A stretch of 64,000 nucleotides of DNA from Parasporobacterium sp. (GTDB lineage Bacteria > Bacillota > Clostridia > Lachnospirales > Lachnospiraceae), in the NCBI GenBank assembly GCA_017459985.1, contig JAFUBX010000031.1, positions 62,001-126,000 of the forward strand, read 5' to 3'. The notes beneath the pieces were generated by a model. That model did not search any database, had not been told where the DNA came from, and worked only from the letters and a program-made list of their open reading frames with translations. The translations under genes were made by a program, and so were the position numbers. The first letter of the stretch is position 1, and each line of letters starts with the position of its first letter. Below, in pieces: positions 8,601 to 40,160 of the stretch.

Positions 8601-9058
8601 GCCATCATCCTGTTTCCTGCGGATGCCGTGACGGAAAGGTCATCCATGCCCGGAAGGACATAGGTCGTGATCTCCGATCCGTTCTCATAGGACCTTTTCA
8701 GGCGCTGTGCCTGTACCATGGCGACATCTTCCGAGTAGTACCGGTAATTACGCTGGATCACTGCTTCCGACATCTGAAGGGCGTGTTCGTATTCCGCCGC
8801 GTATTCGTCCTCCTTCTGCACGGGTCCCAGGGAAGAAAAGAACAGGGCTGCCGGATAGATCAGGACTGCAAGGACCAGGAAGATGGCTGCCGCAGATACC
8901 AGGATTCCGGCTTTCAGGAGATGCCCGGACTGCGTAAGGGCCGTGCCTGCAGCACTTACATGGTGTGTGAGCGCGATCCTGGCCAATTCTTTTGCCGTTT
9001 CCTTTGCAGCGCGTTCCGGATCCTCCAGAAAAGCCGCCTCTCTTTCCGGCTCTGCCAT
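5621..9058 (-). CDS. Large membrane-anchored NlpC/P60 cell-wall hydrolase of the transfer system
   Basis: 1145 aa. A single membrane segment lies near residues 49-74 (KAGILVSAAAIFLVLAVLIY), with most of the protein outside. Two closely similar NlpC/P60 domains (roughly 475-590 and 850-975) each show the order TDCSGFISLVY, then LQPGDIIVYG, then HV.IYAG, giving the catalytic Cys and His. An earlier, more divergent unit around 370-430 (VYGHVGIYIGGGKVMDC) looks like a third wall-hydrolase-type domain. The last 130 residues (AIAWMEGEADYT, YLSASCILNSM) vaguely recall SleB-type hydrolases; that is weak. Such proteins locally open peptidoglycan for the mating channel (VirB1-like role). GAAGGAGG precedes the ATG. 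It lies between VirB6 and the coupling-protein genes, 4 nt from the next gene. Confidence 0.85.
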   Translation of the reverse strand: MAEPEREAAFLEDPERAAKETAKELARIALTHHVSAAGTALTQSGHLLKAGILVSAAAIFLVLAVLIYPAALFFSSLGPVQKEDEYAAEYEHALQMSEAVIQRNYRYYSEDVAMVQAQRLKRSYENGSEITTYVLPGMDDLSVTASAGNRMMAAYHVAKYHNNADINDDEGYRYDFYGDEGKVDYYSSEEGGYALFKITGINPNVQAYEYVITPQRTYTEYEERIVEETVFTGSLADLLPEGHKATRTYVQKIPNEVVVPAVTQTRYRGTITVNVSFQTGNFMKEEFNEILKREGGSLIRSGSLTGDYEQATKTQKLICDLASGTPETEQGFCAQWVMNVINGTGLSRIGGNACDLWQEYCYSTDYTDLDVGMLIAVRSSAASELGEVYGHVGIYIGGGKVMDCTGQVCVTGLEDWIGKYDRLGTAAWGYPPEIRALVEEEVKERDLLEAVRERREGQAEEDSSSSRTVSSARLRDALVRYAMSWVGVTPYVWAGTSLTDGTDCSGFISLVYGAFGIDLPTDSLAYQDLGTKIRKADLQPGDIIVYGNGDHVAIYAGEGEVIHCSSPENGTVKWELGYRPDLSACIRVIEDGKEYEISENLSAFSDPAASSSVTKALQEEIRDVAETLLLEFGLKGKDVFPTYDLPDNALEGIALYCYRQAGTLQGAAMEASYMANCFELYGAEYGTGTEGFLSYVLSSGNFLSGELPGDPEAVPLKAAEVVRKVLVEGYRTLPGYVDRKEAFHKNYTADLMGTAIDAENKSLYRKFLTNIHPLPDPKDLNRNVPDPWTFYCFAPLTSDLFGYSSEQIREKKEEAFFAYGTWVYMGDLPEEADLSGLREQIVQYAMSWVGITPYVEWWNRLDAGGNIQNSLTQGTDCSGFISLVYEHFGYSLSKASDDYQDRVGERITQAELQPGDIIVYGSGSHVSIYAGDGKVVHCSNPKDGTVCWDRSYRSDETAYVRVIEEGDEFSFDSFFFGNLAGEGEELTQSQAEELYLTMALPSKSQVADLLTSYLSGDHDLVVCAIAWMEGEADYTADPYLGYLSASCILNSMLDAPSLYRNGACWATLRGWGAWYSKERLFTRYQNAGMASSFKCLYLAMKYPCRSVHSCFGVDLAYEAYGMTRESAVYVSSIITSEGQMTGVWR

Positions 9059-12703: not shown

Positions 12704-14839
12704 ATGGATATGGATAAACTTATGCGTCCCACCAGTGTGGTGGTAATCGGAGCAAGTGATAAACCGGGGATGGCCGGCGATGCCACCGCCAGCAGTATCA
12801 GAGGCCTCAATAAAGACCGGGTATATTACCTGAATCCACGTCGGGATGAGATCAATGGCCGCAAATGCTATCATGCGCTTTGCGAGCTTCCGGAAATACC
12901 GGACTGCATGCTGATCTGTACCCCTGCGCATGTAGTCCCTGACTATATGGAAGAAGCCGGAAAAATGGGAATCAGAGCCGCTGTTGTAATTGCCAGTGGG
13001 TTTTCCGAACAACGGACAGAAGAAGCCCGGGCCCTTTCCGACAAATTAAAGGAAACCTGTGAACGATATGACATGGCCCTCTGCGGTCCCAACTGCATCG
13101 GAATCATTAACGGCATTGACAATGTCTGCGTCACCGCCAACAACGATGAAACCATGACCATGCTGGCAGATGACGAACGACGGGGCATCGGCGTGATTGC
13201 ACAAAGCGGCTATATCAGTTCCGGATTCAACAATCCGAACTGTGATTATCTGGCATGTGTGGTCAGTGCCGGCAACTCTGTTATCTGTGGATTGGAAGAC
13301 TATATGCTATATATGGTGCAGGAGGATCGCATCAACTGTATCGCAGCTTACATCGAAGGCATCACCAAACCGGATGTCCTGATCCAGGCGCTGAAAATCG
13401 CAGCAGCCAGGAAAAAACCTATTGTTATTCTCAAAGCCGGCTCCTCTTCTAAAGGCGGATTTGCAGCAGCCTCTCATACAGGCAGTCTGACAGGAAATCA
13501 CAGGATCATACTCAGCATTCTGAAAAAATACGGCGCAATTATCACTGAGAGTCTTGAGGAACTTGTTTCTACCGCTCGTATGTTTGCCATTTTAGACGGT
13601 AAACATCCTGTCCATCCTTCCATGGCTGGTATAAATTTTTCCGGTGGCGAAAATACCCTGTGTGCAGATACTGCTGAACGTTATGACATTGCACTTCCGG
13701 ATTTTGCCACCTCGACACTGGAAACAATCCAGGCACTGGTTCCACCATTTGCCACTCCTGCTAATCCGCTGGATGCCACGACTGCCCTCTTCTCTGAGAA
13801 GGAATTGGTTCGAAAACTATTCCTGGCAGCATCCGGAGATTCCTCGATCGGCCTGATTGCCATTGGAAATGATCTGGGTATACATGCAGAACCAAAAGAT
13901 CTGACCTGTGCAGAGGTGCTTTGTGAGATGCAGACTGAAGGTATACTGAAACCAACTCTGATCATACCTTCTTTCGAAAAGACACGAAATGAAAACCTGC
14001 GACAGAACTTAGAACATGCCGGCATCCCGGTGTTGTCCACAGGGGAATATGCCTATCGCGCCATCCGTCATCTGATGGATTTCGTAAGCTTTGATATCTC
14101 CGCAATTTCGTCGGATCCTGCGATTCCGGCCCTGTTTCCACATGAACCGTTGCAGAAAAGAACCCTGTCAGAAAAGGAATCCAAAGAGCTTATGGCTAAG
14201 GTTGGAATCCCCGTCCCGAAACAGTGCCTGCTTACAAAAGAATCCGATCTTGAAAATGCATGTGAAAATATCCCATCGCCCTGGGTTCTGAAAGTGGATT
14301 CGGAAGATATTCCCCACAAAACAGAAGCAGGAGGAGTAAGTCTGCATAATACCACCATAGAAGAGGCCGGAGAAGCTTACCAGAAGATTCTTACAAACTG
14401 TAAAAAATACAATCCGAAAGCACAGATAAATGGTGTGTTGCTTCAGCAGCAGCTCCCGGCGGGACAGGAAATCCTGTTGGGTATTACCTGCGACAGGATG
14501 TTTGGTCCCATGCTGCTATGCGGTTTGGGAGGCATTCAGGCAGAACTGTTCCGGGATACCGCCCTCGCCCCCTGCCCGGTAAGCAAAAAAGAAGCTCTCG
14601 CCATGCTTCGTTCACTTAAGATATGGCCTTTACTGGATGGATTTCGTGGAATACCAAAAGCGGATACCAATGCGTTGGCAGAGCTCATGTGCGTGGTGTC
14701 ACAGTTCGCTGCGGATCACAGAAATGATCTGGCAGAACTGGATCTTAATCCTGTATTTGTTTATGAAGAAGGCCACGGTGCTGTTGCTGCTGATGCACTG
14801 GTAGTACGCTATGAAGCTGCTGCTACGGATACAGATTAG
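12704..14839 (+). CDS. ADP-forming acyl-CoA synthetase (fused alpha-beta)
   Basis: 711 aa. The N-terminal CoA-binding domain begins SVVVIGASDKPGMAG. A ligase-CoA domain carries the phosphorylatable His in AASHTGSLTG (near residue 260), and the C-terminal ATP-grasp domain starts near residue 490 (ESKELMAKVGIPVPKQ; VLKVDSEDIPHKTEAGGV; LDLNPVFVYEEG). NDP-forming acyl-CoA synthetases interconvert acyl-CoA + ADP + Pi and acid + CoA + ATP, in anaerobes usually making ATP from acyl-CoA. AGAGGTG lies 7 nt before the ATG. It is the only plus-strand gene here and converges on the minus operon (5-nt gap). The acyl substrate cannot be read from sequence. With Ptb-Buk nearby, the cluster has two separate routes from acyl-CoA to ATP. 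Confidence 0.85.
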   Translation: MDMDKLMRPTSVVVIGASDKPGMAGDATASSIRGLNKDRVYYLNPRRDEINGRKCYHALCELPEIPDCMLICTPAHVVPDYMEEAGKMGIRAAVVIASGFSEQRTEEARALSDKLKETCERYDMALCGPNCIGIINGIDNVCVTANNDETMTMLADDERRGIGVIAQSGYISSGFNNPNCDYLACVVSAGNSVICGLEDYMLYMVQEDRINCIAAYIEGITKPDVLIQALKIAAARKKPIVILKAGSSSKGGFAAASHTGSLTGNHRIILSILKKYGAIITESLEELVSTARMFAILDGKHPVHPSMAGINFSGGENTLCADTAERYDIALPDFATSTLETIQALVPPFATPANPLDATTALFSEKELVRKLFLAASGDSSIGLIAIGNDLGIHAEPKDLTCAEVLCEMQTEGILKPTLIIPSFEKTRNENLRQNLEHAGIPVLSTGEYAYRAIRHLMDFVSFDISAISSDPAIPALFPHEPLQKRTLSEKESKELMAKVGIPVPKQCLLTKESDLENACENIPSPWVLKVDSEDIPHKTEAGGVSLHNTTIEEAGEAYQKILTNCKKYNPKAQINGVLLQQQLPAGQEILLGITCDRMFGPMLLCGLGGIQAELFRDTALAPCPVSKKEALAMLRSLKIWPLLDGFRGIPKADTNALAELMCVVSQFAADHRNDLAELDLNPVFVYEEGHGAVAADALVVRYEAAATDTD

Positions 14840-14844
14840 AATTA

Positions 14845-15471
14845 TCAAGCCTGCAGTTCCATTGGCAGCTTCAGGACAGCAATCTGTCCAGGTGTATTGC
14901 TGTCGATATCAATAAAGGGTACATCCAGACGGTGTGCACCTTTTTTGTTTACAAGAAATTCTTCCACAGTTCCCATCTGTTCAAAACCGAAACATGCCGT
15001 ACGATAGTGCATGGGAATCAGGATGCGGGGATGGATCTGTTCCATCAGCTCCGTTGCCAGTACCGCTTCACTGTGTTCGAATCCACCTACATTAACCATA
15101 AGGACATCGCAGCCATAAACTTGTTCCAGATCCTGGCCGGACAATCTGTGTCCCAGATCTCCCAGATGAACCACCTTTATTTTCCCATCGCTTACAATAA
15201 ATACTTTGTTGGATCCCAGAATTCTTCCCTGTGCATTATCATGAAAGGCTTCCAGATATCGCACAGACAACTCGCAGGACTTTCCAGTAAGATGTACAGC
15301 ATCCCGATTGTTATGATCAAAATGTTCATGGGTTACCAGAACCCGGTCTGCGGTAATATCCAGCTTCGGAAAATGCAGCAAGCCTTCTGGATCCTGATAG
15401 GGATCAATTACCAGGCTGCTGCCATTGGACTCCAACCGGAAACAGGCCTGCCCGTACCACTCAATTCTCAT
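14845..15471 (-). CDS. Metallo-beta-lactamase-fold hydrolase (UlaG-like)
   Basis: 208 aa. It starts MRIEWYGQACFRLE and contains the metal-binding THEHFDHNN (HxHxDH class), the strand GDLGH and a late His in LIPMHYRT. This is the small MBL-fold family that includes UlaG-like proteins, typically metal-dependent hydrolases of lactones, esters or thioesters. It is the last gene of the long minus operon. No clear ribosome binding site precedes the ATG. In context it could be a thioesterase, lactonase or an additional hydrolase for the pathway substrate; that is inference. Confidence 0.7.
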   Translation of the reverse strand: MRIEWYGQACFRLESNGSSLVIDPYQDPEGLLHFPKLDITADRVLVTHEHFDHNNRDAVHLTGKSCELSVRYLEAFHDNAQGRILGSNKVFIVSDGKIKVVHLGDLGHRLSGQDLEQVYGCDVLMVNVGGFEHSEAVLATELMEQIHPRILIPMHYRTACFGFEQMGTVEEFLVNKKGAHRLDVPFIDIDSNTPGQIAVLKLPMELQA

Positions 15472-15513
15472 ATATTTTATTTTACTTTTTCCGCTGCATC
15501 CTGTGCTATGGGA

Positions 15514-16299
15514 TTATTGAAGCAGCATAAGTCCACCATCCGGATACAGAAACTGTCCGGTAACAAATTTGGAAGCTTCGGAGGCGAAGAATATACTCAT
15601 CCCCACTGTATCCTCCGGAAGCCCGATCCTGCCCATGGGAACACGGGATTCAATTTTTGCAAAGTGTTCCGGATCCTTTGCTTTGATAGGCTCCATCATC
15701 TTCGTAAGCGTCAGGATCGGGCAAACACCATTGACAGTAATATTGTATTTAGCCCATTCAGCAGCCAGCTGCGTGGTAAATGAAGCAACGGCACCTTTGG
15801 AGGAGCTGTATGCACCGGATACGCCGCTGACGGAATGTCTCTTGGCTCCGATAGATCCGATATTGATCACACGTCCATAGTTCTGTTCGATCATACCCTT
15901 TCCAAACTCCCTGCAGCAGATCATGACGCCACGGATATTCACGGCATAGATCTTGTCCCACTCCTCGATCGGACAGTCTATGGTGGAATATTTTTTATTA
16001 TAGCCCTGGGAGTTCACCAGAATGTCTATGGTACCAACCTCTTCTTTTGTTTTTGAAACCAGATCAATAATGCTCTGCTCATCTGCAACATCTACGGTGA
16101 AACAACGAACTTTGTTGCCAGTATCCGCTTCAATCTCCGCTGCCACTTCCTGTAAGCCTGCCAGATTGCGGCTGGCAATACATACATCTGCTCCAAATGC
16201 AGAAAAACCATGAGCGATTGCACGTCCAATTCCGCCACCACCGCCGATTACCATTGCCTTTTTCCCCTTCAGGGAAAACAGATCATCAAATTTGCTCAT
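15514..16299 (-). CDS. Short-chain dehydrogenase/reductase
   Basis: 261 aa, the classical SDR length. The cofactor loop is GGGGGIGRAI (residues 18-27) followed by ASRN, whose Arg suggests possible NADP(H) preference. The usual NNAG is NSQG, the catalytic Ser is in INIGSIGA, the catalytic pair is YSSSK, and the C terminus is TGQFLYPDGG. AAAGGAA precedes the ATG. SDRs of this size include gluconate 5-dehydrogenases and phloroglucinol reductases. Because it lies in the same operon as a retro-Claisenase and a beta-keto acid cleavage enzyme, a role in reducing a cyclic (poly)ketone or polyphenol tautomer is plausible. The substrate is inference. Confidence 0.8.
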   Translation of the reverse strand: MSKFDDLFSLKGKKAMVIGGGGGIGRAIAHGFSAFGADVCIASRNLAGLQEVAAEIEADTGNKVRCFTVDVADEQSIIDLVSKTKEEVGTIDILVNSQGYNKKYSTIDCPIEEWDKIYAVNIRGVMICCREFGKGMIEQNYGRVINIGSIGAKRHSVSGVSGAYSSSKGAVASFTTQLAAEWAKYNITVNGVCPILTLTKMMEPIKAKDPEHFAKIESRVPMGRIGLPEDTVGMSIFFASEASKFVTGQFLYPDGGLMLLQ

Positions 16300-16346
16300 T
16301 GTAACTTTCCTTTCTCACCTATTTATTTCCGGGATCCTTTCCGGAT

Positions 16347-16688
16347 TCAATGCACACCGGAAATTACCAGCATAACTGCCTGTTCCTCTGTATTATTTTT
16401 CACACTGCGGATCTCTCCGGCCTTGAAGAAGATGGAATCCCCAGCCTGCAGCTGGTAATCCTGCCCTTCGCAGGTCACTGTCAGGGTCCCTTCTATCACG
16501 TAATACACAAGTTCCATCCCCGGTTTTACTGGACTCGCCTCAGCGCCTCCTCCGGGATTGAATGTACTGCACCCGATGGTCAGGATCTCAGAACCGCTCA
16601 TATCCTTGCTGTGTGCACGTCTGGCAGTCATATTGTAATGGCCGGCCGGATTATATTGCACCTGTTCATCATGTAATGTTATTTTCAT
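16347..16688 (-). CDS. Small single-domain cupin
   Basis: 113 aa, one cupin barrel: FNPGGGAEASPVKPGMELVY, then GTLTVTCEGQDYQLQAGDSI and a final beta strand. The usual metal-binding motif G(X)5HXH is poorly kept; the first-motif His residues are replaced, and Glu appears at ASPVKPGMELVYYVIEG. It may therefore bind metal differently or not at all. AAGGAG precedes the ATG. It sits between the SDR and the BKACE gene, so a role as an isomerase, lyase or ligand sensor in the pathway is possible but unproven. Confidence 0.65.
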   Translation of the reverse strand: MKITLHDEQVQYNPAGHYNMTARRAHSKDMSGSEILTIGCSTFNPGGGAEASPVKPGMELVYYVIEGTLTVTCEGQDYQLQAGDSIFFKAGEIRSVKNNTEEQAVMLVISGVH

Positions 16689-16759
16689 CTCATCTGCTCC
16701 TTGTGTTATCTGCAGGAAAGGCCGGATACCGTCATCCAGGGCAATATCCGACCCGTCTG

Positions 16760-17581
16760 TCAGTTCAGTCCCCGTAATCCCAGGATGGCTCTGGCTTCTT
16801 CGGGGGTTGCTACTTCATTACCGTATTCCCGGATGACTCTTGCAGCCCTTGCAACCAGCATCTCATTGGTTGCCAACTCACCGCGGCTGTAATACAGATT
16901 ATCCTCTAATCCAACACGCACATTTCCACCCATAGCAATGGATGCATACAGCATCGGCATATGATTTGCACCGACACCAAGGGCTGACCAGGTCGCATCT
17001 GCAGGCAGCTTGTTTCTCAAATGCACAAGATTTTCTACGGTCGCCTGCGCAGCTCCCTGCACACCCAGTACAAACTGTACGTGAAGAGGTCCGTTAATAA
17101 CTCCTTTTTTTACATAGTACTCTGCATTGTGCAACATACCGGAATCAAACACCTCGATCTCCGGTTTGATGTTATTATCTGTCAGTGCTTTTCCCAGCAT
17201 TTCCAGAAAATCCGGGGGATTAGAAAAAACACTTGGCAGCCAGTTAAAGGTACCGGTATCATAGGAAGCCATTTCCGGCTTCAGTTCAATAATATGTTCC
17301 ATCCGGCGTTCATAACTTGCACCACGCTCGCCTGAAGAGGTAAGGTTGATGACAACATCACTGTTATCTCTGATACGATTTACGGTTTCCCGGAAGCGTT
17401 CCTTGTCCATTGTGCCTTTACAGTTCTCATCCCTCATATGCAGATGAACGATGGCAGCACCGGCTTTCCATGCACGGATAGCATCTTCTGCAATTTCCTT
17501 CGGAGTAACCGGGAGTGCCGGGTTTTTTTCTTTTGGAGTGGCCGCACCGGTCAGTGCGGCAGAAATAATCGTTTTTGCCAT
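16760..17581 (-). CDS. Beta-keto acid cleavage enzyme (BKACE family)
   Basis: 273 aa starting MAKTIISAALTGAATP; this ATG is chosen for GAGG 6 nt upstream rather than the longer frame from 17611. Family features: the metal-binding VHLHMRD, the strand VINLTSSG, EIEVFDSGML and the C-terminal region GGNVRVGLEDNLYY. BKACEs (Kce, CdhC, triacetate acetoacetate-lyase and relatives) are Zn2+-dependent and react a beta-keto acid with acetyl-CoA to give acetoacetate and a new CoA ester. It lies 26 nt after the retro-Claisenase gene. Neighbours that could feed it (beta-hydroxyacid dehydrogenase) and drain it (thiolase, CoA transferase, Ptb-Buk) are present. The substrate is not determined by what I can see. 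Confidence 0.88.
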   Translation of the reverse strand: MAKTIISAALTGAATPKEKNPALPVTPKEIAEDAIRAWKAGAAIVHLHMRDENCKGTMDKERFRETVNRIRDNSDVVINLTSSGERGASYERRMEHIIELKPEMASYDTGTFNWLPSVFSNPPDFLEMLGKALTDNNIKPEIEVFDSGMLHNAEYYVKKGVINGPLHVQFVLGVQGAAQATVENLVHLRNKLPADATWSALGVGANHMPMLYASIAMGGNVRVGLEDNLYYSRGELATNEMLVARAARVIREYGNEVATPEEARAILGLRGLN

Positions 17582-17607
17582 TGATTTCCTCTTTTCAAAT
17601 CTTGGGA

Positions 17608-18441
17608 TCAATATTTCTTGGTATCTTCGAAACCACTTCTGGTCTTTTCAAGAACCTTGTTATATCCTTCAATCGCTACATGGAACTTATAATCGGATGT
17701 AAACAGTTTCTGCCACGGACGGACCGCGAGCTGATGTGTGGCTCTTCTGCAGGTACGGCCTGTTTTCAGAAGACTCCTTGCAAGTTCCCATGCACGGTCA
17801 TTGATCTTATCGCGCTCTACGACTTCGTTCATGATGCCCAGATCCACGCATTCCTGTGCAGTAAATTCCTGATGGAAATACTCGAAATAGTTCGCGCGCT
17901 TCGGTCCGATCAGATGCTGCATGGCCAGATACATACCATCGCCGGGGACATGACCAATTGGAGGTGTGGTGTAATGATCATCACGCAGAACAAAGTCCGG
18001 TGTACAAATAGTAATATCCGCAAGCATACCCATTTCCCAGTGAAGCCCCGGCCCGTTAAATGCCGTAATGGTCGGGATATCAATATCATTCAGAAAGTTT
18101 TCTACAATTCTCTGTGTATCATATATCTGGACATTATACTGTTCCTTGGTACTCTGTTCATCCATGGAGTGAAAAGATCCCATATCAAACTGTGCAATCC
18201 ATTTGTCACCTGTAGCCGTAAAGATCAGAACTTCATTATCTCTGTCTTTACCGATTGCGGTCCAGAGTTCTGCGATAGCATGATGCATCTGATAGCTCCA
18301 GACGACTGGTCCATTATCATAGTGCATGCGAACCTCGATGATGCCATTCTCATCACGGCGCATTTTAAAATACTCTTCAAAGCGTTTGCTGTACTGATCA
18401 AAAGTCTCTACAGGTATCCATTTTCTTCTTGTAACAGGCAT
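17608..18441 (-). CDS. Crotonase-fold beta-diketone hydrolase (6-oxocamphor hydrolase-like)
   Basis: 277 aa with the crotonase fold. Compared from memory with 6-oxocamphor hydrolase, several blocks match: an N-terminal YS..FE....RDENG, GPVVWSYQMHHAIA (the His in this block is kept), TATGDKW, FNGPGLHWEMGMLADI, GHVPGDGMYL (keeping the catalytic Asp of VPGDG) and a NEV plus RAWELARS block near the end. Ordinary enoyl-CoA hydratases lack this combination and carry two Glu residues instead. Enzymes of this group cleave a C-C bond of cyclic 1,3-diketones by water (retro-Claisen). GGAGG lies 6 nt before the ATG. It lies 82 nt downstream of the VOR gamma gene and just upstream of the BKACE gene. Fold is firm, subfamily good, substrate unknown. 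Confidence 0.75.
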   Translation of the reverse strand: MPVTRRKWIPVETFDQYSKRFEEYFKMRRDENGIIEVRMHYDNGPVVWSYQMHHAIAELWTAIGKDRDNEVLIFTATGDKWIAQFDMGSFHSMDEQSTKEQYNVQIYDTQRIVENFLNDIDIPTITAFNGPGLHWEMGMLADITICTPDFVLRDDHYTTPPIGHVPGDGMYLAMQHLIGPKRANYFEYFHQEFTAQECVDLGIMNEVVERDKINDRAWELARSLLKTGRTCRRATHQLAVRPWQKLFTSDYKFHVAIEGYNKVLEKTRSGFEDTKKY

Positions 18442-18523
18442 TTTTATCCTCCGTTCTTTCTGTTTCCGCCATTGGCGAAAATATTAATGATTTCAATTTA
18501 AATTTTCAGCATGTGCTGATAAA

Positions 18524-19060
18524 TTACATATACCGATATCCTTCTTCCAAAGCTGCCTCATTGATGGCTGCATAAGCACCTTTTCCCTTGCTATCAAAGT
18601 ATTCCAGGAGATTCTTCCGGAATGAATTCAGGGAAAACATTCCTGTTATCTTGAGCAATGTCCCCAATGCGGCGATATTGGCGCCTTTTGGATTATTTAC
18701 TTTCTGTGCCATGGAAGCAAACGGTGCACGAATAATTCGAACCGCTTCCATCTCGAAAGGGATCTCATCCCCAATCGTATCGCTGTTAATCAGAATCAAC
18801 CCACCGGGTTTTACAAATTTGGAAAACTCCTCCAGAGAAGGTCTGTTCATTGCTACCAGCACATCCAGTTCTTCTATATCCGGATGACAGATCTGTTTAT
18901 CATCAAATTTCACCAGACTGTAGGACTTTCCACCACGCATCTGCCCGCCATAAGCCGGCATCCACAGTACTTCTTTTCCTTCATTCTGTGCGGCATAGGC
19001 GACAATTAACCCGGATGTCAGCACACCCTGTCCGCCAAATCCTGCAAATACGATATCCAT
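18524..19060 (-). CDS. 2-oxoacid:ferredoxin oxidoreductase, gamma subunit (VorA/KorC type)
   Basis: 178 aa from the ATG at 19060 (GGAGG upstream; a longer frame has none). It opens with MDIVFAGFGGQGVLTSG and contains the CoA-binding-domain marker YGGQMRGGKSYSLVKF. The gamma subunit binds CoA for acyl transfer from thiamine-bound intermediates. It follows the beta gene by 2 nt and completes a delta-alpha-beta-gamma gene set, the arrangement of VOR and KOR enzymes of anaerobes. Confidence 0.88.
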   Translation of the reverse strand: MDIVFAGFGGQGVLTSGLIVAYAAQNEGKEVLWMPAYGGQMRGGKSYSLVKFDDKQICHPDIEELDVLVAMNRPSLEEFSKFVKPGGLILINSDTIGDEIPFEMEAVRIIRAPFASMAQKVNNPKGANIAALGTLLKITGMFSLNSFRKNLLEYFDSKGKGAYAAINEAALEEGYRYM

Positions 19061-19062
19061 GT

Positions 19063-19800
19063 TTATTCCTCCGTTCCTTTGAATTCTCCGAGGGGATAAT
19101 ATTTCGTCACTTCCTGATCGATCCATTCAATCGCTTTTACAGGAGCCATATTCCAGTCGGTAGGGCATGGAGAGAGCAATTCTACAATGGCATATTTCCC
19201 ATCACGGATCTGAAGTTCGATCGCTTTGCGGATATATTTTTTTGCCATATTGATATTTCTGGGACTATTCAGCGCTCCCCTGGCAGCATAAGCTACAGCG
19301 TCAAACCGGGCGGCCATCTGAAGTGGGTCAATGGGTAGACCTGTCTGCTCCGGATTTCTTCCTCCCGGACTGGTGGTAGTCTTCTGTCCCGGAAGTGTGG
19401 TCCAGGACATCTGTCCTCCGGTCATTCCGTAATTGTTGTTGTTGATAACAAAGGTGGTGATGGGTGCTCCGAAATGGGCAGCATTGAGAGTCTCACTCAG
19501 CCCGATAACATAGGCATCTCCATCCCCCTGATAGGTGAACACCAGTGTTTCCGGTCGAGCCAGTTTCACGCCCCGGGCAATGGTCGGTGCTTTTCCATGA
19601 TGGCTTTCAATGGCACTTCCTTTTGTAGTAGCCATAAAATAATTGGAGGAACATCCGACACCGTCCACACAGATAAAATTGCCTGCATAACCGGTTTCAT
19701 CCAGCACTTCATGCAGCAGCCGGATAAACAGGCCATGGCCGCAGCCTGCGCAAAATCCATGATCTTTTGTAAGTGTTGGCCTTTTTTTTGCGACTGCCAT
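19063..19800 (-). CDS. 2-oxoacid:ferredoxin oxidoreductase, beta subunit (TPP-binding)
   Basis: 245 aa. Cys ligands in FCAGCGHG; the thiamine diphosphate/Mg motif is YQGDGDAYVIGLSETLNAA followed by NNNNYGMTGGQMS. Beta subunits bind thiamine diphosphate and decarboxylate the 2-oxoacid. The ATG overlaps the alpha stop in TGATG, so translation is coupled. The shape is that of 2-oxoglutarate or branched-chain 2-oxoacid:ferredoxin oxidoreductases rather than the single-chain pyruvate enzyme. Confidence 0.9.
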   Translation of the reverse strand: MAVAKKRPTLTKDHGFCAGCGHGLFIRLLHEVLDETGYAGNFICVDGVGCSSNYFMATTKGSAIESHHGKAPTIARGVKLARPETLVFTYQGDGDAYVIGLSETLNAAHFGAPITTFVINNNNYGMTGGQMSWTTLPGQKTTTSPGGRNPEQTGLPIDPLQMAARFDAVAYAARGALNSPRNINMAKKYIRKAIELQIRDGKYAIVELLSPCPTDWNMAPVKAIEWIDQEVTKYYPLGEFKGTEE

Positions 19801-20852
19801 CAGAATCCCTCCTTACAATTTCCGTTCTGTACTGCATAATATTTTTCCATGATCTGTCCGACCTTGGCTGCAACAGCTCCTGAATATAGTCCATATACTT
19901 TCGCATCATGGAATTTTGTCACCCGTTTAGTCGCGATCAGTACATCTTCCAGCACCTGTCCGGCCACACAGCTCTCCACAGTGATGAAATTTCTTACCGT
20001 ATCCGGCAGAGCCTCAAACCCTTTCCGCGGGAACGGCCAGGCAGAGATCACACGCAGGAGGCCGACTTTCTCTCCATTTTCCCGCAGCTTGTCCACTGCT
20101 CCGCGGCTGGTACGTGAGGGAAGCCCAAACGCAACAAAAATCGTTTCTGCATCTTCACAGCGGTACAATTCCCAACGCTGTTCCGCTTCTTCCATCGCTG
20201 CAATCTTGTCTCCAAGGTTCTTTACGAAATTGGGATTCTCATGATCCAGCAGAACTTCTGCAGGGACACCATCCATTCCATCGATGGCCCTGGCCGTTGG
20301 TTTGAACTCCGGAAGCTCCACCGGTTCCATCATCTGTCCGATTTTTCCTTCTGAAAGGATTTCCACCGGATTTCTCCATTTTTCGGAAAGTTCAAAGGCT
20401 TCATAGGCGAAATCCATCATCTCCTGCACGCTGTTCGGTGCAAGAATAATCACCCGGTAATCACCATTTCCTCCGCCTCTGGTATCACGAAGGTAATCGC
20501 CTTGCCCTTCAAGGGCAAATCCCAATCCCGGGCCGCAACGCTGCACATTGGCAAATACCCCGGGGATAGACTTTGCACACATACCGGAGATTGCCTCCTG
20601 CATCAGAGATATTCCCACGGCACTGGAGGAAGTAAACGTCCGCATACCTGCCTGCCGGGCACCATATACAGTAAACATTGCTGCTGTTTCACTTTCCGTC
20701 TGCTGGAAAAATCTCCCCAGTTCAGGCATCCGCCAGGACAGATACTCCATAACTTCCGACTGAGGAGTAATCGGATATCCTGCAAACAGCATAGCGCCTC
20801 CGCGTACAGCCCCTTCTGCAAGTGCTTCATTCCCTTTCATTAGCTTTTTCAT
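19800..20852 (-). CDS. 2-oxoacid:ferredoxin oxidoreductase, alpha subunit (VorB-like)
   Basis: About 350 aa from the ATG at 20852, with GGAG 8 nt upstream. Family hallmark GYPITPQSEVMEYL at residues about 24-37; QQTESETAAMF, RTFTSSSAVGISLMQEA and DTRGGGNGDYRVIILAPNSVQE are typical of VorB-type alpha chains. Together with the beta, gamma and delta chains it would oxidise a 2-oxoacid to acyl-CoA + CO2 and reduce ferredoxin. VOR-like identity suggests branched-chain or related 2-oxoacids; 2-oxoglutarate is the alternative. Confidence 0.85.
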   Translation of the reverse strand: MKKLMKGNEALAEGAVRGGAMLFAGYPITPQSEVMEYLSWRMPELGRFFQQTESETAAMFTVYGARQAGMRTFTSSSAVGISLMQEAISGMCAKSIPGVFANVQRCGPGLGFALEGQGDYLRDTRGGGNGDYRVIILAPNSVQEMMDFAYEAFELSEKWRNPVEILSEGKIGQMMEPVELPEFKPTARAIDGMDGVPAEVLLDHENPNFVKNLGDKIAAMEEAEQRWELYRCEDAETIFVAFGLPSRTSRGAVDKLRENGEKVGLLRVISAWPFPRKGFEALPDTVRNFITVESCVAGQVLEDVLIATKRVTKFHDAKVYGLYSGAVAAKVGQIMEKYYAVQNGNCKEGF

Positions 20853-20865
20853 GTATTTTTCTCCA

Positions 20866-21066
20866 TCATTCTGTGATCTCAAAAACCATATCCGGGCATA
20901 CGGTATAACAGGTTCCGCAATAAATGCAGTTTTCTTCATCTGCTTCCACATAGGTATAGCTCTGTGAATTCATGTTTTCCGAAAAATGCAGGACCTGTCT
21001 GGGGCAAAATTTTATACAGTATCCGCACGCCTTACAGGATTCTGTATTAATGATAAGCTTTGACAT
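20866..21066 (-). CDS. 2-oxoacid:ferredoxin oxidoreductase, delta subunit (2[4Fe-4S] ferredoxin)
   Basis: 66 aa with two classical clusters: CKACGYCIKFCP and CIYCGTCYTVCP. It is the first gene of the four-subunit set and is translated from an ATG preceded by GGGAGG. Delta subunits relay electrons from the thiamine site to external ferredoxin. The distance to the alpha start is 13 nt. Confidence 0.9.
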   Translation of the reverse strand: MSKLIINTESCKACGYCIKFCPRQVLHFSENMNSQSYTYVEADEENCIYCGTCYTVCPDMVFEITE

Positions 21067-21090
21067 TTTCCATTCCTCCCATTTTGGGCC

Positions 21091-22254
21091 CTATACCCTT
21101 TCAATAATTGCGGAGAATCCCTGTCCGCCGCCTACACAGAATGTGATCAGACCGAGATTTTTATCTCTACGTTTCAGTTCATATACCATCTTGGCTGTCA
21201 GCATACCGCCAGTGGCACCGAAGGGATGTCCCAGAGCAATTGCCCCGCCGTTAACATTCACTTTGTCAATATCCAGGTTAAGCCCCCGGATACATGCGAT
21301 AGACTGGGAAGCAAATGCTTCATTCAATTCAATCAGGTCAATATCCTGCATCGTCATTCCCAGTTTTTTCAGCAGCTTGTTGGTTGCATTAATGGGGCCC
21401 TCTCCCATGTAATCCGGGTCACAGCCGGCACTTGCAAATCCTTTTATCACTCCCAGGATCTCCACGCCCCGTTCCTTGGCAGTTTCCAGTTCCATAAGAA
21501 TCACTGCTGAGGCGCCATCCGTCAACGGAGAACTGTTGCCTGCAGTACAGACACCGTTCTCCTTAAAGGATGGCTTCAAAGCGCTTAAGGCTTCCAGGGA
21601 GGTTTCTCTAATGGTTTCGTCCGTTGTAAATACTGCCGTTTCTTTCTTGTTTACCGGTGCTTCCACAGCAACAATCTGCTCGTTAAAATAGCCTGCATCA
21701 CTGGCAGCTTTTGCCCGTTGCTGACTCAAAAGGCCAAAAGCATCGCATTCCTGTCTGGTAATTCCCCATTTATCTGCTACCTTTTCTGCAGTCATTCCCA
21801 TGGGATAATCCTTCATGTTCCGAGGTACAGAACGACCAGCTGTAAATTTCGGTTCCGCCACCGGAATCCTGATCTCACGCTGCATAATAAAGGGACGGTG
21901 AGAAGTGGCTTCCATCCCGCCTGCCAGATAAATATCACCTTCGCCTGCTTTAATATATGCAGCAGCCATACAAATAGCATTCAATGCCGATGAACATCCC
22001 CGTTCAACGGTAACCGCTGGAGTCTCCAAAGGAAATCCAGCTGCCAGAGCTGCAACTCTGGCCGGCGTCTTCAGGTCAATATTGCGGGCATTACCCATAA
22101 TCACTTCTTCAACCTCATCATAGCCTATCTGGGCCCGCTTCATCGCTTCCTTCATTGCGAAAGCTGCTAGTTCATCAGCTTCCAGCTGCATGAACTGCCC
22201 ACGTATTTTTCCTGCCGGAGTTCTCACGGCTGCTGCGATAACTGCTTCTCTCAT
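21091..22254 (-). CDS. Thiolase (acetyl-CoA C-acyltransferase)
   Basis: 387 aa, usual length. Nucleophile Cys in VERGCSSALNAIC (near 87), the conserved LIELNEAFASQ, the active-site His in ALGHPFGATGG and the second Cys in FCVGGGQGFS at the C terminus. It catalyses thiolytic cleavage of a 3-ketoacyl-CoA (or the reverse condensation). AAGGAG precedes the ATG. It lies 24 nt upstream of the VOR delta gene in the same operon. A natural role is conversion of acetoacetyl-CoA to two acetyl-CoA, which would resupply the acetyl-CoA consumed by the BKACE. Confidence 0.9.
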   Translation of the reverse strand: MREAVIAAAVRTPAGKIRGQFMQLEADELAAFAMKEAMKRAQIGYDEVEEVIMGNARNIDLKTPARVAALAAGFPLETPAVTVERGCSSALNAICMAAAYIKAGEGDIYLAGGMEATSHRPFIMQREIRIPVAEPKFTAGRSVPRNMKDYPMGMTAEKVADKWGITRQECDAFGLLSQQRAKAASDAGYFNEQIVAVEAPVNKKETAVFTTDETIRETSLEALSALKPSFKENGVCTAGNSSPLTDGASAVILMELETAKERGVEILGVIKGFASAGCDPDYMGEGPINATNKLLKKLGMTMQDIDLIELNEAFASQSIACIRGLNLDIDKVNVNGGAIALGHPFGATGGMLTAKMVYELKRRDKNLGLITFCVGGGQGFSAIIERV

Positions 22255-22381
22255 TTTCTGTAATCTCCTTCGTTCTCTATGCTTAAAGTCTACCCTTTTC
22301 CCATCTGTGCTTCATCGTTTTCACTCACAAAAACAACAAACAATGTTTATACAAATGAACAAATCAGGGATCCAGCATCTT

Positions 22382-23716
22382 TTAATTTGTTTCCTTTTTC
22401 TCTCCCGGTTTTACGAAATCGTAATACCGGTTTACGCAATGCGTTTCCTTCAAGCAGACACTCATGATGAATGCTACTGCCGACAGAATCACACAAATCG
22501 TAAAAGTTTTCTGATATGATATGGCATCAGTATTGATCAGTTTATACTTATCAAGCAGCACACCTGCCAGAGTTGGCATAAATGCAGAACACAGCATTCC
22601 TGCAAAATTGACCGCTGTAACGGCGACACCTACAAAACCAGGATCATTGACTTCTCTGGAATAGGCAAAAATAATCTGAATGCCCGTGCCTGACATTCCC
22701 ATCAGAAACATCACAACCCAGAGCAGTGGAACGGACATAAACCGGTTCGGACCATATGCCAGGCAAGCCCAAAGTACAGCCATCATGCCGGAGATAAATG
22801 CAAGTACGATCTTCCGGCTCCGAATACGGTCAGAGATCTTGCCTACGGTAAATCCAAAAAGGATCATTCCTGCCATCATGGCACTGGTATATCCGGTCGC
22901 TTCCATTTTGGACATTTGATATACAGAAGTCAGATAAGGGACCGCCCAGGTCGCACTGAACAACCCCTGCAGCCCTTGATGAATCATGCAGATCACCAGC
23001 AACGGCCATACATAACGATTGGCAAAGGTTCTACCGATTGCCTTGATCGTTTCTGAAATAGTAAGGCTCTTCCGAGGACGTTCTGCTCTTCCTTCTAATT
23101 CTGCAATAGACGGGAAGCCACAAGCTTTCGGTGTATCCTTGACAAAGATCCAGCACAGGATGGCAGTTGCCGCACTGATCCCCACACAGACCAGAAAGAT
23201 CGCACGCCAGGAGACGACCTCGATCAGCCATGCCAGTGGATACTGCGCCAGCAAAGCTCCGGAATATCCAATTAGACTGGCCGTACTGAAGGCACTAGCA
23301 GTCCGGCGTTCTGGAAACCAGTTGGTGATGAATTTCTGCATGGAAACCACCGGTGCAGAAACGCCAATCCCAATCAGTACACGTCCGATACAAGCCACTG
23401 CAAAAGACTGGGAAGTACCGAAAATCAGGGATCCGGCAGCTGCAAATGCACAGCCGATGGAAACGGTTTTGCGGGTGCCGATCATATCCAGCAACGCGCC
23501 GATGGGAATCTGCATAAGCATGTAGGGATAAAAATACATGGAGCTTAAGGTCCCAAACGCAGCATCGCTGGTGATAAAGGAGGACAGTTCTCCTTTTATG
23601 ACACCAGTGGAATTACGGTGAAACTGTACAAAACAGTAGGCAATCGCAATGATCACAAAAGAGATTACCCGCTGTATCTGCATTTTTCTTTTATCTTCTT
23701 TGCTTAAAACCATCAT
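22382..23716 (-). CDS. Major facilitator superfamily transporter
   Basis: About 444 aa with 12 predicted hydrophobic segments, beginning VISFVIIAIAYCFVQFHRNS. An RxGxR-type loop lies after helix 2 (ALLDMIGTRKTVS) and its counterpart in the second half is KISDRIRSRKIV. The ATG at 23716 is favoured over a TTG three codons earlier. It lies between the buk and thiolase genes, so it probably moves the pathway substrate or product (an organic acid is the usual cargo of related carriers). The specific substrate is unknown. It ends 128 nt before the thiolase start. Confidence 0.8.
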   Translation of the reverse strand: MMVLSKEDKRKMQIQRVISFVIIAIAYCFVQFHRNSTGVIKGELSSFITSDAAFGTLSSMYFYPYMLMQIPIGALLDMIGTRKTVSIGCAFAAAGSLIFGTSQSFAVACIGRVLIGIGVSAPVVSMQKFITNWFPERRTASAFSTASLIGYSGALLAQYPLAWLIEVVSWRAIFLVCVGISAATAILCWIFVKDTPKACGFPSIAELEGRAERPRKSLTISETIKAIGRTFANRYVWPLLVICMIHQGLQGLFSATWAVPYLTSVYQMSKMEATGYTSAMMAGMILFGFTVGKISDRIRSRKIVLAFISGMMAVLWACLAYGPNRFMSVPLLWVVMFLMGMSGTGIQIIFAYSREVNDPGFVGVAVTAVNFAGMLCSAFMPTLAGVLLDKYKLINTDAISYQKTFTICVILSAVAFIMSVCLKETHCVNRYYDFVKPGEKKETN

Positions 23717-23728
23717 GAATCCCAACCA

Positions 23729-24808
23729 TTATCTGTCAAATACGCGAACCTCTTCTTCACCTCTGAGTACGCGGACAATCCCGCCGGCCAATGCTTCCAT
23801 CTCGAAGCTGCCGGGAACCACCGTCACTGGCGCAAGATTTTCCACATACGATGTGATCATTCCGGTCAGCAATCCGGAATATGCTATTCCACCTGTCAGG
23901 ATGATCCCGTCCAGTGCAAATCCCATAACCGCAGCCATGGAGCCTATATCCTTAGCAATCTGATAAGCCATGGCTTCATACACTGTTTTTGCTTCAGTAT
24001 CACCGGATTGTATCCTTGCTTCCACCTCCTTGGCACTGTTGGTTCCAAGGTAGCTGACCAGGCCTCCACGGCCACGCATGATTCCTTTCATCTCCCGGTA
24101 GGTATACCGGCCGGAATAACACAGATCGATCAGCGTGGAACAGGGGACTTTGCCTGCACGTTCTGGTGAGAAAGTGCCTTCGTCATCACAGACCATATCA
24201 ATGATGCGGCCTTTTCTGTGCGCACTAGTGGAGATTCCTCCTCCCAGATGGGTAATCACATAATTACAGTCCCTGTATTCTTTTCCGTGATCAGCCGCCA
24301 CTTTCCGGGCTACCGCCTTTGTATTCAACGTATGTGCAGCTGCCTTCCTAACGATCTCCTTATATCCTGAGTAACGGGCAATCTCCGTCATTTCGTCAGT
24401 AGAAACTGCATCATAGATATAAGCCTTCTTCCCGGCCTCACTGGCTAATGTATGGGCGATGACACAGGCGTTCCAAGATGCCCCGGGGGTTCTTCCGTCG
24501 CGGGGATGATAAACCGCATCGATCATCGCATCATTGACCTCATAAGCACCTGCCTGAAAAGCAGCGATGGATCCGCCTCTTCCTACAAAAGCATCAAAAT
24601 CCGTAATCAGAAGTCCCAGCTCCTGTATGTAATTCCGTACTGCTTCCGTGCGGAAGGGTATCTGCTCCTGCTGGGAATGAAACTGTTCCAGCACTTGGCT
24701 GGAATGTTCCAGTGTTTTGTTGCTGATTTCTTCAAAATCATGAAAAACCGCAACTTTCGTGGAGGTAGAGCCGGAATTGATAACCAGAATGTTATAAAAT
24801 GGTTTCAT
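23729..24808 (-). CDS. buk: Butyrate kinase
   Basis: 359 aa, full family length. ASKHA-fold motifs: phosphate-1 VINSGSTSTKVAVF (residues 9-22), RGGSIAAFQAGAYEV, HPRDGRTPGASWNA, VITHLGGGISTSAH (phosphate-2) and IILTGGIAYS (adenosine). It transfers phosphate from butyryl- (or isobutyryl-/other acyl-) phosphate to ADP. AAAGGGGA precedes the ATG, 2 nt from the ptb stop, forming the standard ptb-buk pair for ATP formation. Butyrate kinases accept branched acyl groups, which would fit with the VOR genes. Confidence 0.93.
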   Translation of the reverse strand: MKPFYNILVINSGSTSTKVAVFHDFEEISNKTLEHSSQVLEQFHSQQEQIPFRTEAVRNYIQELGLLITDFDAFVGRGGSIAAFQAGAYEVNDAMIDAVYHPRDGRTPGASWNACVIAHTLASEAGKKAYIYDAVSTDEMTEIARYSGYKEIVRKAAAHTLNTKAVARKVAADHGKEYRDCNYVITHLGGGISTSAHRKGRIIDMVCDDEGTFSPERAGKVPCSTLIDLCYSGRYTYREMKGIMRGRGGLVSYLGTNSAKEVEARIQSGDTEAKTVYEAMAYQIAKDIGSMAAVMGFALDGIILTGGIAYSGLLTGMITSYVENLAPVTVVPGSFEMEALAGGIVRVLRGEEEVRVFDR

Positions 24809-24810
24809 GT

Positions 24811-25740
24811 TCAGCAGTCCCCTTTCTGGTCATCCGCTACCGCAACCAGAGCTGCAATGGCAATTGATGTCAACTTGGCTTCTGTCGTAGAGGCCCTGGA
24901 TGAGGCAACGATTGGCACCTTGGCGCCGACGATAATCGCTGTTACTTTTGCATGGCAGGAAATGGATAGACATTTTCCCAGGATATTTCCGGCGTGAATT
25001 TGCGGGGCCACCAAAATGTCAAAGTCACCACTATAGGGACAGTCAAACTTCTTGGTCTCCGCCACCCGTTTGCTCATGGCGATATCATAGGAGATCGGGC
25101 CTTCCACAAAACAAGAGCCAAGCTTTCCTTCCCTGGCCATATCCCGGATTTCCCGTGCTTCCATTGTTTCCGGCATATGGGGATCGACTTCCTCTTTACA
25201 GCATAGCAGAGCTACCTTGGGCATTTCGTAGCCAAGTTTTCTGAGTGTTTCACAGGCATTATAGGTAATATCGGTCTTTTTCTGCAGATCCTGCGGATTT
25301 ACCATTCCTCCGTCTGTAACGCAGAGGAGCTTATGGTATTCCGGCATCTCATACATTGCAAAATGAGACATGGTCCGCCCGGTGCGCAGATTGTTTTCTT
25401 TTTTCACCACCTGGCGGAGAATATCCGTGGTGGAAAGCATTCCTTTCAGGATGAAGTTAGCTGCTCCTTCGTTGATCAGCTGCACTGCCCGGATGGCACT
25501 TTCTTCATGTCCGGAGGTCTTCTCAATCCGGAATGTATCTGCCGGGATTTGAAGTTCTCCCATAATCCGTCGGATCTCAGCTTCATCTCCGATCAAGATA
25601 CTGTCCGCAAGCCCTCTTTTTTTAGCTTCATAGGCGCAGCCTATTACATGCTCTCCTTCCGCAGCAGGAACTGCCATGACCCTTTTTTCTTTCAGACTGC
25701 ATCCTCTTTCCAGCAGTTCTCCTAATGATTTGATTTCCAT
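24811..25740 (-). CDS. ptb: Phosphate butyryltransferase
   Basis: 309 aa, standard length. Motifs of the phosphate acyltransferase family: VMAVPAAEGEHVIGCA near the start, ANFILKGMLSTTDILRQVV, VTDGGMVNPQDLQKK and the C-terminal VGAKVPIVASSRAST. It converts an acyl-CoA and phosphate to acyl phosphate and CoA for butyrate kinase. AAGGAAGG lies upstream of the ATG. It follows the 3-hydroxyacid dehydrogenase by 27 nt in the same operon. Confidence 0.93.
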   Translation of the reverse strand: MEIKSLGELLERGCSLKEKRVMAVPAAEGEHVIGCAYEAKKRGLADSILIGDEAEIRRIMGELQIPADTFRIEKTSGHEESAIRAVQLINEGAANFILKGMLSTTDILRQVVKKENNLRTGRTMSHFAMYEMPEYHKLLCVTDGGMVNPQDLQKKTDITYNACETLRKLGYEMPKVALLCCKEEVDPHMPETMEAREIRDMAREGKLGSCFVEGPISYDIAMSKRVAETKKFDCPYSGDFDILVAPQIHAGNILGKCLSISCHAKVTAIIVGAKVPIVASSRASTTEAKLTSIAIAALVAVADDQKGDC

Positions 25741-25767
25741 AGCTTATGCTATTCCTTCCTTCTCTGC

Positions 25768-26730
25768 TCAGAATTTTTCATGTAACTTCAGAATCTCAAA
25801 GAGCATATCATCTCTCCATTTTTCGATGGACGGAATATCTCTTCCCCAGGATTCGGGGCGATGAGACAGCTCTTCTTCCATACCTTCCCCAAATACTTTG
25901 TCCCATCCCTCCGGAAAGATTGTCCAAGAAGCCAGATCTGCCACCCTCTTATTGGGGGTTCCCGGAACCCAGTGAAATTTGGTTGTAAAATTAGAAATAC
26001 CATCCGGGGCGGCATTCAGATGCAGTGACAGTGCCTGTCCCATAATCCCCCAGCGGATACCAACGCTGTAGGTTAGGGCTTTGTCCACATCCTCCACCGA
26101 ACAGACTCCGTTCATAACCAGATGAACGATTTCTCTGTGAATAGCACTCTGCAGACGATTTGCAATAAATCCGGTCACTTCCTTGTTTAGAAGAACTGGT
26201 TCTTTTCCGATCAGCCGGTAGAATTCCATCGCTTCCTGAGCAGTCTCTTCGCTGGTCTTCTGTCCTTTGGTGACTTCCACAAGAGGAATCAGATAAGATG
26301 GAAGATAAGGATGTCCTCCGATACACCGCTCCGGATGCTTTGCCTTTGCAAAGATCTCCGTAATGGATAATCCAGAAGTACTGGAGGCTATGATTGCTTC
26401 AGCAGATGCATAATCTTCAATCTGTGCGATCATTTCCTGCTTGATCTCAAGTTTTTCCGGTACTGCTTCCGTAATAAAATAAGCATCCTTTACGGCCTCT
26501 TCAACAGAGGTTGTATAGGTGATCATATTCTTTGCTGCCGTATAGCCTTCCTCATCAATTACCCTTTTTTCTTTCATGAATGTAAGCGCTGTTTCGATAC
26601 GGCTCTGACACCGCTCCACATTGCTCCTTGTCTGCACAGTCACTTCTAACCCATGCAGGACACAATTCACTGCCAGTCCGGTTCCGATCAGACCGGACCC
26701 TATAAAGGCTGCTCTATGGAATGTAGTCAT
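25768..26730 (-). CDS. 3-hydroxyacyl-CoA/3-hydroxyacid dehydrogenase (carnitine-dehydrogenase-like)
   Basis: 320 aa from the ATG at 26730, with AAAAGGAG upstream. The NAD-binding loop is GSGLIGTGLA; ITEAVPEKLEIKQ, SSTSGLSITEIFAKA and GHPYLPSYLIPLVEV follow. The C-terminal domain reads RWGIMGQALSLHLNA, a block that to my memory is closer to carnitine dehydrogenase and lambda-crystallin-type enzymes than to beta-oxidation dehydrogenases. Such enzymes oxidise free 3-hydroxy acids to 3-keto acids with NAD. It is the first gene of the catabolic operon and would supply the beta-keto acid for the BKACE. A 3-hydroxyacyl-CoA substrate remains possible. Confidence 0.75.
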   Translation of the reverse strand: MTTFHRAAFIGSGLIGTGLAVNCVLHGLEVTVQTRSNVERCQSRIETALTFMKEKRVIDEEGYTAAKNMITYTTSVEEAVKDAYFITEAVPEKLEIKQEMIAQIEDYASAEAIIASSTSGLSITEIFAKAKHPERCIGGHPYLPSYLIPLVEVTKGQKTSEETAQEAMEFYRLIGKEPVLLNKEVTGFIANRLQSAIHREIVHLVMNGVCSVEDVDKALTYSVGIRWGIMGQALSLHLNAAPDGISNFTTKFHWVPGTPNKRVADLASWTIFPEGWDKVFGEGMEEELSHRPESWGRDIPSIEKWRDDMLFEILKLHEKF

Positions 26731-28264: not shown

Positions 28265-28666
28265 AAATCTGTCCTTTCGGATAGCCAATAGAAAATCAGC
28301 CCCCTGATTAGAGAAACCTATTTCCCGTTCTTGTGAATATAAGCACGCTGTGTTATGCTGGATAACACTTATATGACAGGCGATGCTGCTTCTTTAGTTT
28401 GACATATACATTCTCATTCTGATTGTTTAAATCCACAACATCTGATATATTTCTGCATCGGAGAGTTTCATTCATTTAAAGAGCGTTCCTATACTGCATA
28501 TTTTCGTCGTCTACAGGAACATTGTAAATAGATTTTCATGACGTTTCCATGTTGCATAACGAAATTATAAGGTCGGATTATCCATATACGATTGTGAATT
28601 TTCACAAATCATGTTATGTTACTTGGAAGAAGATCGTTCCGACCATCCAGAAATGAAGGAAAGAAT
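28265..28666. promoter_or_regulatory. Divergent regulatory region between MATE and PucR genes
   Basis: Gene-free 400 bp, AT-rich. Two inverted repeats are clear. GTGTTAT-gctgg-ATAACAC (28350-28368) has 7-bp perfect arms and a 5-nt spacer, on the MATE side. TTGTGAA-tt-TTCACAA (28592-28607) has 7-bp arms, on the PucR side. These are candidate operators for the adjacent PucR-type regulator. A TTGACA hexamer occurs near 28399, but I could not match it to a well-spaced -10. Confidence 0.5.
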
Positions 28667-38361: not shown

Positions 38362-38394
38362 AAGGTATCCCTTTCTTTTCTCATGGTTTTCGAT

Positions 38395-40158: not shown

Positions 40159-40160
40159 AA

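Follow-up and report, generated by a model that had tools for sequence, protein, structure and literature searches.

A putative pathway for ring-substituted phloroglucinols

A run of 13 co-directional genes on the minus strand of the Parasporobacterium sp. genome (positions 14845-26730 of the 64,000-nucleotide stretch analyzed here, hereafter the window) may encode an anaerobic pathway that resembles the degradation of phloroglucinol (PG) and acts on a ring-substituted (2-alkyl) phloroglucinol. We give this reading a probability of about 0.42, and we infer its substrates and the order of its steps; the gene families, the active site of the predicted ring-opening enzyme, the conserved linkage of the genes and a BKACE clade parallel to that of PG clusters are supported by computation. 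The genes, separated by gaps of -1 to 232 bases, encode a metallo-beta-lactamase-fold hydrolase (MBL), an SDR oxidoreductase, a small cupin, a BKACE, a crotonase of the 6-oxocamphor hydrolase type, a 2-oxoacid:ferredoxin oxidoreductase (VOR), a thiolase, an MFS transporter, a butyrate kinase (buk), a phosphotransbutyrylase (ptb) and a 3-hydroxyacid dehydrogenase of the 3HCDH family. Families were assigned by Pfam and NCBIfam profile matches and, for the crotonase, additionally by phmmer against the PDB. These matches bear out all the gene families and minus-strand positions given by an earlier model-made reading of the same letters (the sequence-only reading), which had proposed PG itself as the substrate.

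The crotonase as a predicted beta-diketone hydrolase

The crotonase (17608-18441, 277 aa), proposed here as the ring-opening retro-Claisenase, is very likely to be a hydrolase of 1,3-diketones, because solved beta-diketone hydrolases head both its sequence and its modeled fold matches and because the catalytic residues are kept. Against the PDB, phmmer ranked the beta-diketone hydrolase 2j5g (1.6e-38) and 6-oxocamphor hydrolase 1o8u (1e-34) first, the next family following at 1.7e-14. The top 12 PDB chains matched by an AlphaFold2 model (pLDDT 86.9) were exclusively 6-oxocamphor hydrolase and ALR4455 entries (1o8u, 2j5g, 2j5s and 1szo), among which a His122Ala variant is named. H53, H134, H156, D168 and E258 of the window protein align with His45, His122, His145, Asp154 and Glu244 of 6-oxocamphor hydrolase, which we take to be its catalytic residues; H134, H156, D168 and E258 are kept in 20/20 relatives and H53 in 17, the other three having Gln. 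The earlier description of this protein as a 6-oxocamphor-hydrolase-like retro-Claisenase is thus upheld as a prediction. With 6-oxocamphor hydrolase and Anabaena ALR4455 it shares, at about 30% identity, the fold, the catalytic residues and the predicted retro-Claisen hydrolysis of a cyclic 1,3-diketone; unlike theirs, the window crotonase genes stand in a context of BKACE, thiolase, ptb and buk. The substrates of 6-oxocamphor hydrolase and ALR4455 are bicyclic diketones, and their hosts are aerobes.

Neither Pfam nor NCBIfam gave the crotonase or the PG cyclase a specific name. The only Pfam family matched by the crotonase is ECH_1, and the best-scoring model of the window BKACE is that of the lysine-fermentation enzyme Kce, which would suit an ordinary CoA-dependent hydratase in a fatty-acid or lysine-type fermentation cluster. 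Such an identity is nevertheless highly improbable: the active site is of the 6-oxocamphor hydrolase type, the fold matches lie far ahead of CoA enzymes, and the BKACE, which stays under the Kce cut-off (325 vs 382) and has Ala14 instead of Glu14, was rejected as a Kce; the Kce model is also the best-scoring one for a PG-cluster BKACE.

Relation to the phloroglucinol pathway

The PG pathway of Clostridium scatologenes comprises the SDR PGR, the ring opener DPGC of the Mn-dependent cyclase family, the 3HCDH-family dehydrogenase TfD and the BKACE TAL, and Eubacterium ramulus and Flavonifractor plautii are named as carriers of PG clusters (PMC10470551, in excerpt). The step-by-step likeness to this pathway, already pointed out in the sequence-only reading, holds for the kinds of genes, since an SDR, a 3HCDH-type dehydrogenase, a BKACE, an MFS transporter, a thiolase and a butyrate kinase are common to the C. 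scatologenes cluster and the window, and the chemical order proposed for the operon is the same. Seven PG clusters were recovered (L155-L161), from E. ramulus, two Flavonifractor, an Oscillospiraceae metagenome-assembled genome, Anoxynatronum, Sinanaerobacter and Alteromonas, and all seven carry SDR, 3HCDH, cyclase, BKACE and a small cupin (in L155 on the opposite strand). The cupin of the window, at first left without explanation together with VOR and MBL, has its counterparts in these clusters; the other two stay unexplained. In L158, genes for a butyrate kinase, NuoF-like, GltD-like and FAD_binding_2 proteins follow the PG cluster (12972-18000), as they follow crotonase clusters elsewhere.

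The differences concern the central enzymes. The PG pathway opens the ring by an Mn cyclase (PMC10470551, in excerpt), whereas the operon would do so by a crotonase, and in this respect the sequence-only reading needed correction. When compared with the PG proteins of E. ramulus, rather than with those of C. scatologenes as first suggested, the window SDR, dehydrogenase and BKACE reach 31, 36 and 53%, respectively. No metal-dependent DPGC-type cyclase was found in the operon, and the one PF04199 protein of the window genome (G000) is not a DPGC, with 0 matches to the PG-cluster cyclase at 1e-50. Orthologs of PGR and TfD were likewise not found in G000, where the best matches are the window's own SDR (31%) and 3HCDH (39% over 222 residues), as compared to 83-84% and 61-64%, respectively, in G010 and G459. 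The proposal of PG as substrate is only partly supported: the design is common to PG clusters, but none of the window enzymes is orthologous to its counterpart there.

That PG itself is nonetheless degraded, the crotonase being a non-orthologous replacement of the metal-dependent cyclase and the window SDR and 3HCDH standing in for PGR and TfD, is unlikely, although several observations speak for it besides the matching gene kinds. The PG block is missing from G000 while 10/13 of its genus mates hold the PG cyclase (in one of them just 84 residues at the edge of a contig). Moreover, G000, which encodes three BKACEs, keeps on contig C59 a lone Trp-type TAL BKACE (TGAW) with 81% to that of E. 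ramulus, and this enzyme could work with the operon. On the other hand, the BKACE of the operon itself is not of the Trp type, and the PG block may merely be unassembled because G000 (131 contigs, 4.98% contamination) is 94.75% complete. Furthermore, the genus mate G010 has crotonase genes together with PGR, TfD, DPGC and TAL, its PG genes lying on separate short contigs, and 7/16 genomes combine a PG cluster with a crotonase gene located elsewhere, among them E. ramulus, Flavonifractor, Anoxynatronum and Sinanaerobacter. As both sets occur separately in these seven genomes, the crotonase set is better read as a parallel pathway than as the PG pathway itself. Sedimentibacter saalensis (G461), which has a crotonase cluster, is devoid of PF04199 proteins. 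The TAL-type BKACE of C59 (L014, 9187-10083) has the same two neighboring genes as its counterpart in G010 (L165), and the PG-cyclase homologue of G001 (L216) contains one in-frame stop as listed.

A separate clade of crotonase-linked BKACEs

The window BKACE belongs to the Kce/BKACE family (PF05853), whose metal and catalytic His and Glu positions it keeps; it differs in having a hydrophobic residue where Kce carries Glu14 and C. scatologenes TAL Trp16, and in its membership of a separate crotonase-linked clade. In Kce the residue at this position faces the 5-amino group of the substrate (PMC10470551, in excerpt). The alignment places Ala14 there in the window protein, where triacetate lyase has Trp. 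Among BKACEs adjacent to a cyclase, 6/8 carry Trp, the others being L161 (Met) and L162 (no readable motif); among those adjacent to a crotonase, Trp occurs in 0/21 loci (23 rows less two repeats), which show Val in 11, Met in six and Gly in one, three being unread. The Fisher p of 6e-5 for this split is descriptive and ignores kinship. In the BKACE tree, a branch with support 94/90 sets 19 crotonase-linked rows, including the window and the E. ramulus contig L185, on one side, and the ten Trp rows fall together on a single side; four rows, long or distant, were counted in neither group. Computation on these sequences thus supports a crotonase-linked clade parallel to the Firmicutes PG-cluster BKACEs. 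The small residue at the Glu14/Trp16 position would leave room for a substituent at C5/C6.

The model for 3,5-dioxohexanoate cleavage (NF053538, cut-off 430) is passed by the Alteromonas PG-cluster BKACE (547), which supports the labeling of the PG clusters. The window BKACE scores 240, a value that says nothing about TAL identity because the E. ramulus PG-cluster BKACE, taken as control, is also under the cut-off (231).

Crotonase clusters in other genomes

A scan of genome contigs with the single crotonase protein found no relative; a scan with an alignment of four crotonases found 163, of which 80, representing 79 loci, were kept. The gene is rare, as it occurs in 3/61 relatives at 1e-15 and in 2/398 genomes of the phylum at 1e-20. 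The closest kept crotonases (50-64%) come from Dehalococcoidales, alpha- and gammaproteobacteria and others, and in several of these loci, and likewise in the genus mate G010, the crotonase has cupin, SDR and 3HCDH as neighbors. The window SDR has 60-62% to the SDRs adjoining the crotonase in L010 and L019, the cupin 54-58% to the cupins of the same two loci vs 36-43% to those of Firmicutes PG clusters, and the dehydrogenase 77% to a crotonase-linked protein of G010. Crotonase clusters also occur in polyphenol-degrading taxa. The gene was found in 9/20 genomes of the genus Flavonifractor, 15/20 of which have the PG cyclase. In E. ramulus, contig L185 carries 3HCDH, BKACE, SDR, ptb, buk and thiolase, and its end probably adjoins the start of L061, where an ene-reductase and the crotonase lie.

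Thirty-two Firmicutes crotonase loci (29/79 chosen by record title, plus L010, L011 and L013) were surveyed for neighbors with hits above 60 bits. Thiolase was seen in 18 of them, BKACE in 17, buk in 13, ptb in 12, SDR in 10, 3HCDH and a GltD-like Fe-S flavoprotein in nine each, ScoA in six, a FAD_binding_2 reductase in five, a NuoF-like protein in three and cupin in one; cyclase, VOR, MBL and acyl-CoA synthetase were found in none at this threshold.

Marine crotonase loci additionally carry two cyclases, FAH-type hydrolases and sulfatases, and their clusters possibly represent a pathway for sulfated polyphenols. L022, L024, L025 and L027 combine the crotonase with cupin, SDR and 3HCDH; L022 and L024 also have two PF04199 cyclases, the former with FAH-type hydrolases and the latter with a sulfatase.

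These contexts bear on a further explanation, possible though doubtful, in which the enzymes act on some other cyclic or linear 1,3-diketone that does not derive from a phloroglucinol ring (e.g., from resorcinol, a hydroaromatic acid or inositol). Some crotonase clusters have BKACE, ptb, buk and thiolase while SDR, 3HCDH and cupin are missing from their vicinity, so that a beta-ketoacid may arise directly; the marine pairing with two cyclases, FAH-type hydrolases and sulfatases and the lack of a place for VOR and MBL in a PG-like scheme point in the same direction. Conversely, cupin and SDR accompany the crotonase in the window, G010 and L019 in the manner of PG clusters, and both E. ramulus and Flavonifractor break down polyphenols. 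Two other candidates were rejected. The inositol fermentation route of Anaerostipes uses other enzymes (PMC8355322, in excerpt), and nothing besides the dehydrogenase family supports a carnitine-type degradation.

Proposed reactions and the catechin A ring

Under the preferred reading, a 2-alkyl phloroglucinol would enter through the MFS transporter (22382-23725, PF07690) and be reduced by the SDR (15514-16299, 261 aa, assigned by Pfam/NCBIfam and not a PGR ortholog), acting as ring (keto-tautomer) reductase, to 2-R-5-hydroxycyclohexane-1,3-dione. Hydrolytic retro-Claisen opening by the crotonase would yield 3-hydroxy-5-oxo-6-R-hexanoate, which the 3-hydroxyacid dehydrogenase (25768-26730; 3HCDH/carnitine dehydrogenase/lambda-crystallin type) would oxidize to 3,5-dioxo-6-R-hexanoate. 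The best NCBIfam models of this dehydrogenase are 3-hydroxyacyl-CoA and L-carnitine dehydrogenase, both under cut-off, and its active-site Ser, His and Asn align with those of E. ramulus TfD; its most likely start is at 26730 (320 aa). The BKACE (16760-17581, PF05853 at 356 bits), with a most likely start at 17581 (273 aa), would then exchange 3,5-dioxo-6-R-hexanoate and acetyl-CoA for acetoacetate and R-CH2-CO-CH2-CO-CoA. The thiolase (21091-22254, an acetyl-CoA C-acyltransferase above the TIGR01930 cut-off) would cleave the latter into acetyl-CoA and R-CH2-CO-CoA. Finally, ptb (24811-25740, best family yet under the equivalog cut-off) and the butyrate-kinase-type acyl kinase buk (23729-24808, above cut-offs), or the 3-oxoacid CoA transferase, would release R-CH2-COOH with formation of ATP. 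The acetoacetate could be activated by the same transferase, whose subunits B and A exceed their subfamily cut-offs at 46844-48189 (minus strand), which confirms the gene pair previously placed at 46.8-48.2 kb.

With R = ArCH2CH(OH)CH2, as in C-ring-opened catechin, the end product would be a 5-aryl-4-hydroxyvaleric acid. According to a 2025 study, F. plautii acts on the A ring of catechin whose C ring is already open and forms 5-(3',4'-dihydroxyphenyl)-4-hydroxyvalerate, the enzymes not being named in the excerpted text (PMC11887054). This product is the one predicted by the pathway and is therefore counted in favor of a ring-substituted substrate, the likeness being one of product type and genus and not of sequence. 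Two reverse Claisen reactions have been proposed for the A ring (PMC6359708, in excerpt), a 2021 review terms the catechin enzymes undiscovered (PMC8276758, in excerpt), and in Eggerthella lenta C-ring opening is carried out by the flavin enzyme Cber (PMC11887054). It is only tentatively suggested that clusters of this type encode the A-ring route still lacking for the breakdown of flavan-3-ols (catechin, proanthocyanidin), here borne by a conjugative element, in which the crotonase retro-Claisenase and a wide-pocket BKACE would convert C-ring-opened catechins into phenyl-hydroxyvalerates and valerolactones with a gain of ATP.

Several points weigh against a pathway for substituted phloroglucinols. 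VOR, MBL and the neighboring acyl-CoA synthetase have no role in the scheme, and ptb-buk does not discriminate, as it also adjoins the E. ramulus PG cluster. The BKACE was not seen in 15/32 Firmicutes crotonase loci (some short, some long), and clusters of the Sedimentibacter/Anoxynatronum type, from organisms that are not gut bacteria, lack an adjacent 3HCDH and cupin. Four of the ten Trp rows of the tree group were chosen after their Trp had been seen, and the two cyclase-adjacent BKACEs L161 and L162 depart from the Trp pattern. In Flavonifractor, crotonase and PG cyclase are not significantly linked (8/9 vs 7/11, p 0.32), and the crotonase count is at the genus level. E. ramulus is not known to degrade the catechin A ring.

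Remaining genes and mobile-element context

Within the operon, the MBL (14845-15471, PF13483), the small cupin (16347-16688, 113 aa, PF07883), usual in PG and window-like crotonase clusters, and the VOR-type gamma, beta and alpha subunits (18524-20852) complete the gene set. An NDP-forming acyl-CoA synthetase (12704-14839, plus strand) is divergent or merely neighboring, its link being uncertain. A PucR-type regulator (28616-30310, plus strand), with weak matches to C-terminal parts of AdeR and CdaR-type regulators, is divergent to the operon.

Further to the right lies a vinylphenol-reductase-like FAD_binding_2 reductase (40161-41654, minus strand; nearest model NF053717, 290 bits vs cut-off 600), relatives of which adjoin other crotonase clusters; one may ask whether it functions in a manner akin to the C-ring-opening Cber. 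An NADH-linked Fe-S flavoprotein and a small NuoF-like Fe-S protein (44015-46796, plus strand) are a putative electron feed to this reductase. In both the window (37363-43823) and L019 (861-3361), the Dehalococcoidales locus with the closest crotonase, FMN-reductase-like genes are found close to FAD_binding_2 genes. An HMG-CoA-lyase-like protein beside a class III CoA transferase (41671-43823) is without relatives in the surroundings of the other 32 Firmicutes crotonase loci.

The flanking genes agree with a mobile element. A type IV secretion system coupling protein (3183-5228) and an NlpC/P60 protein (5621-9058) lie on the left side of the window, with a TraG/VirB4-type P-loop protein immediately to the left of it, and RecD2 helicase, YqaJ, primase-like and ERF genes on the right side; the assignment to an integrative and conjugative element made in the sequence-only reading is only partly confirmed. 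Also immediately left of the window, an open reading frame of 3107 aa (L016, 6552-15875) is found near peptidoglycan-binding and BspA-type repeat proteins, and a Fic-domain protein (50860-51804) is encoded between the catabolic part and the element genes to its right.

Significance

If the flavan-3-ol reading is true, these clusters would supply the genes for a well-known gut conversion, that of the catechin A ring to phenylvalerolactones, and producers would become predictable from genomes. On the narrower reading, they would represent a second, unrelated family of ring-opening enzymes for anaerobic phloroglucinol-type chemistry, spread across Firmicutes and other phyla.

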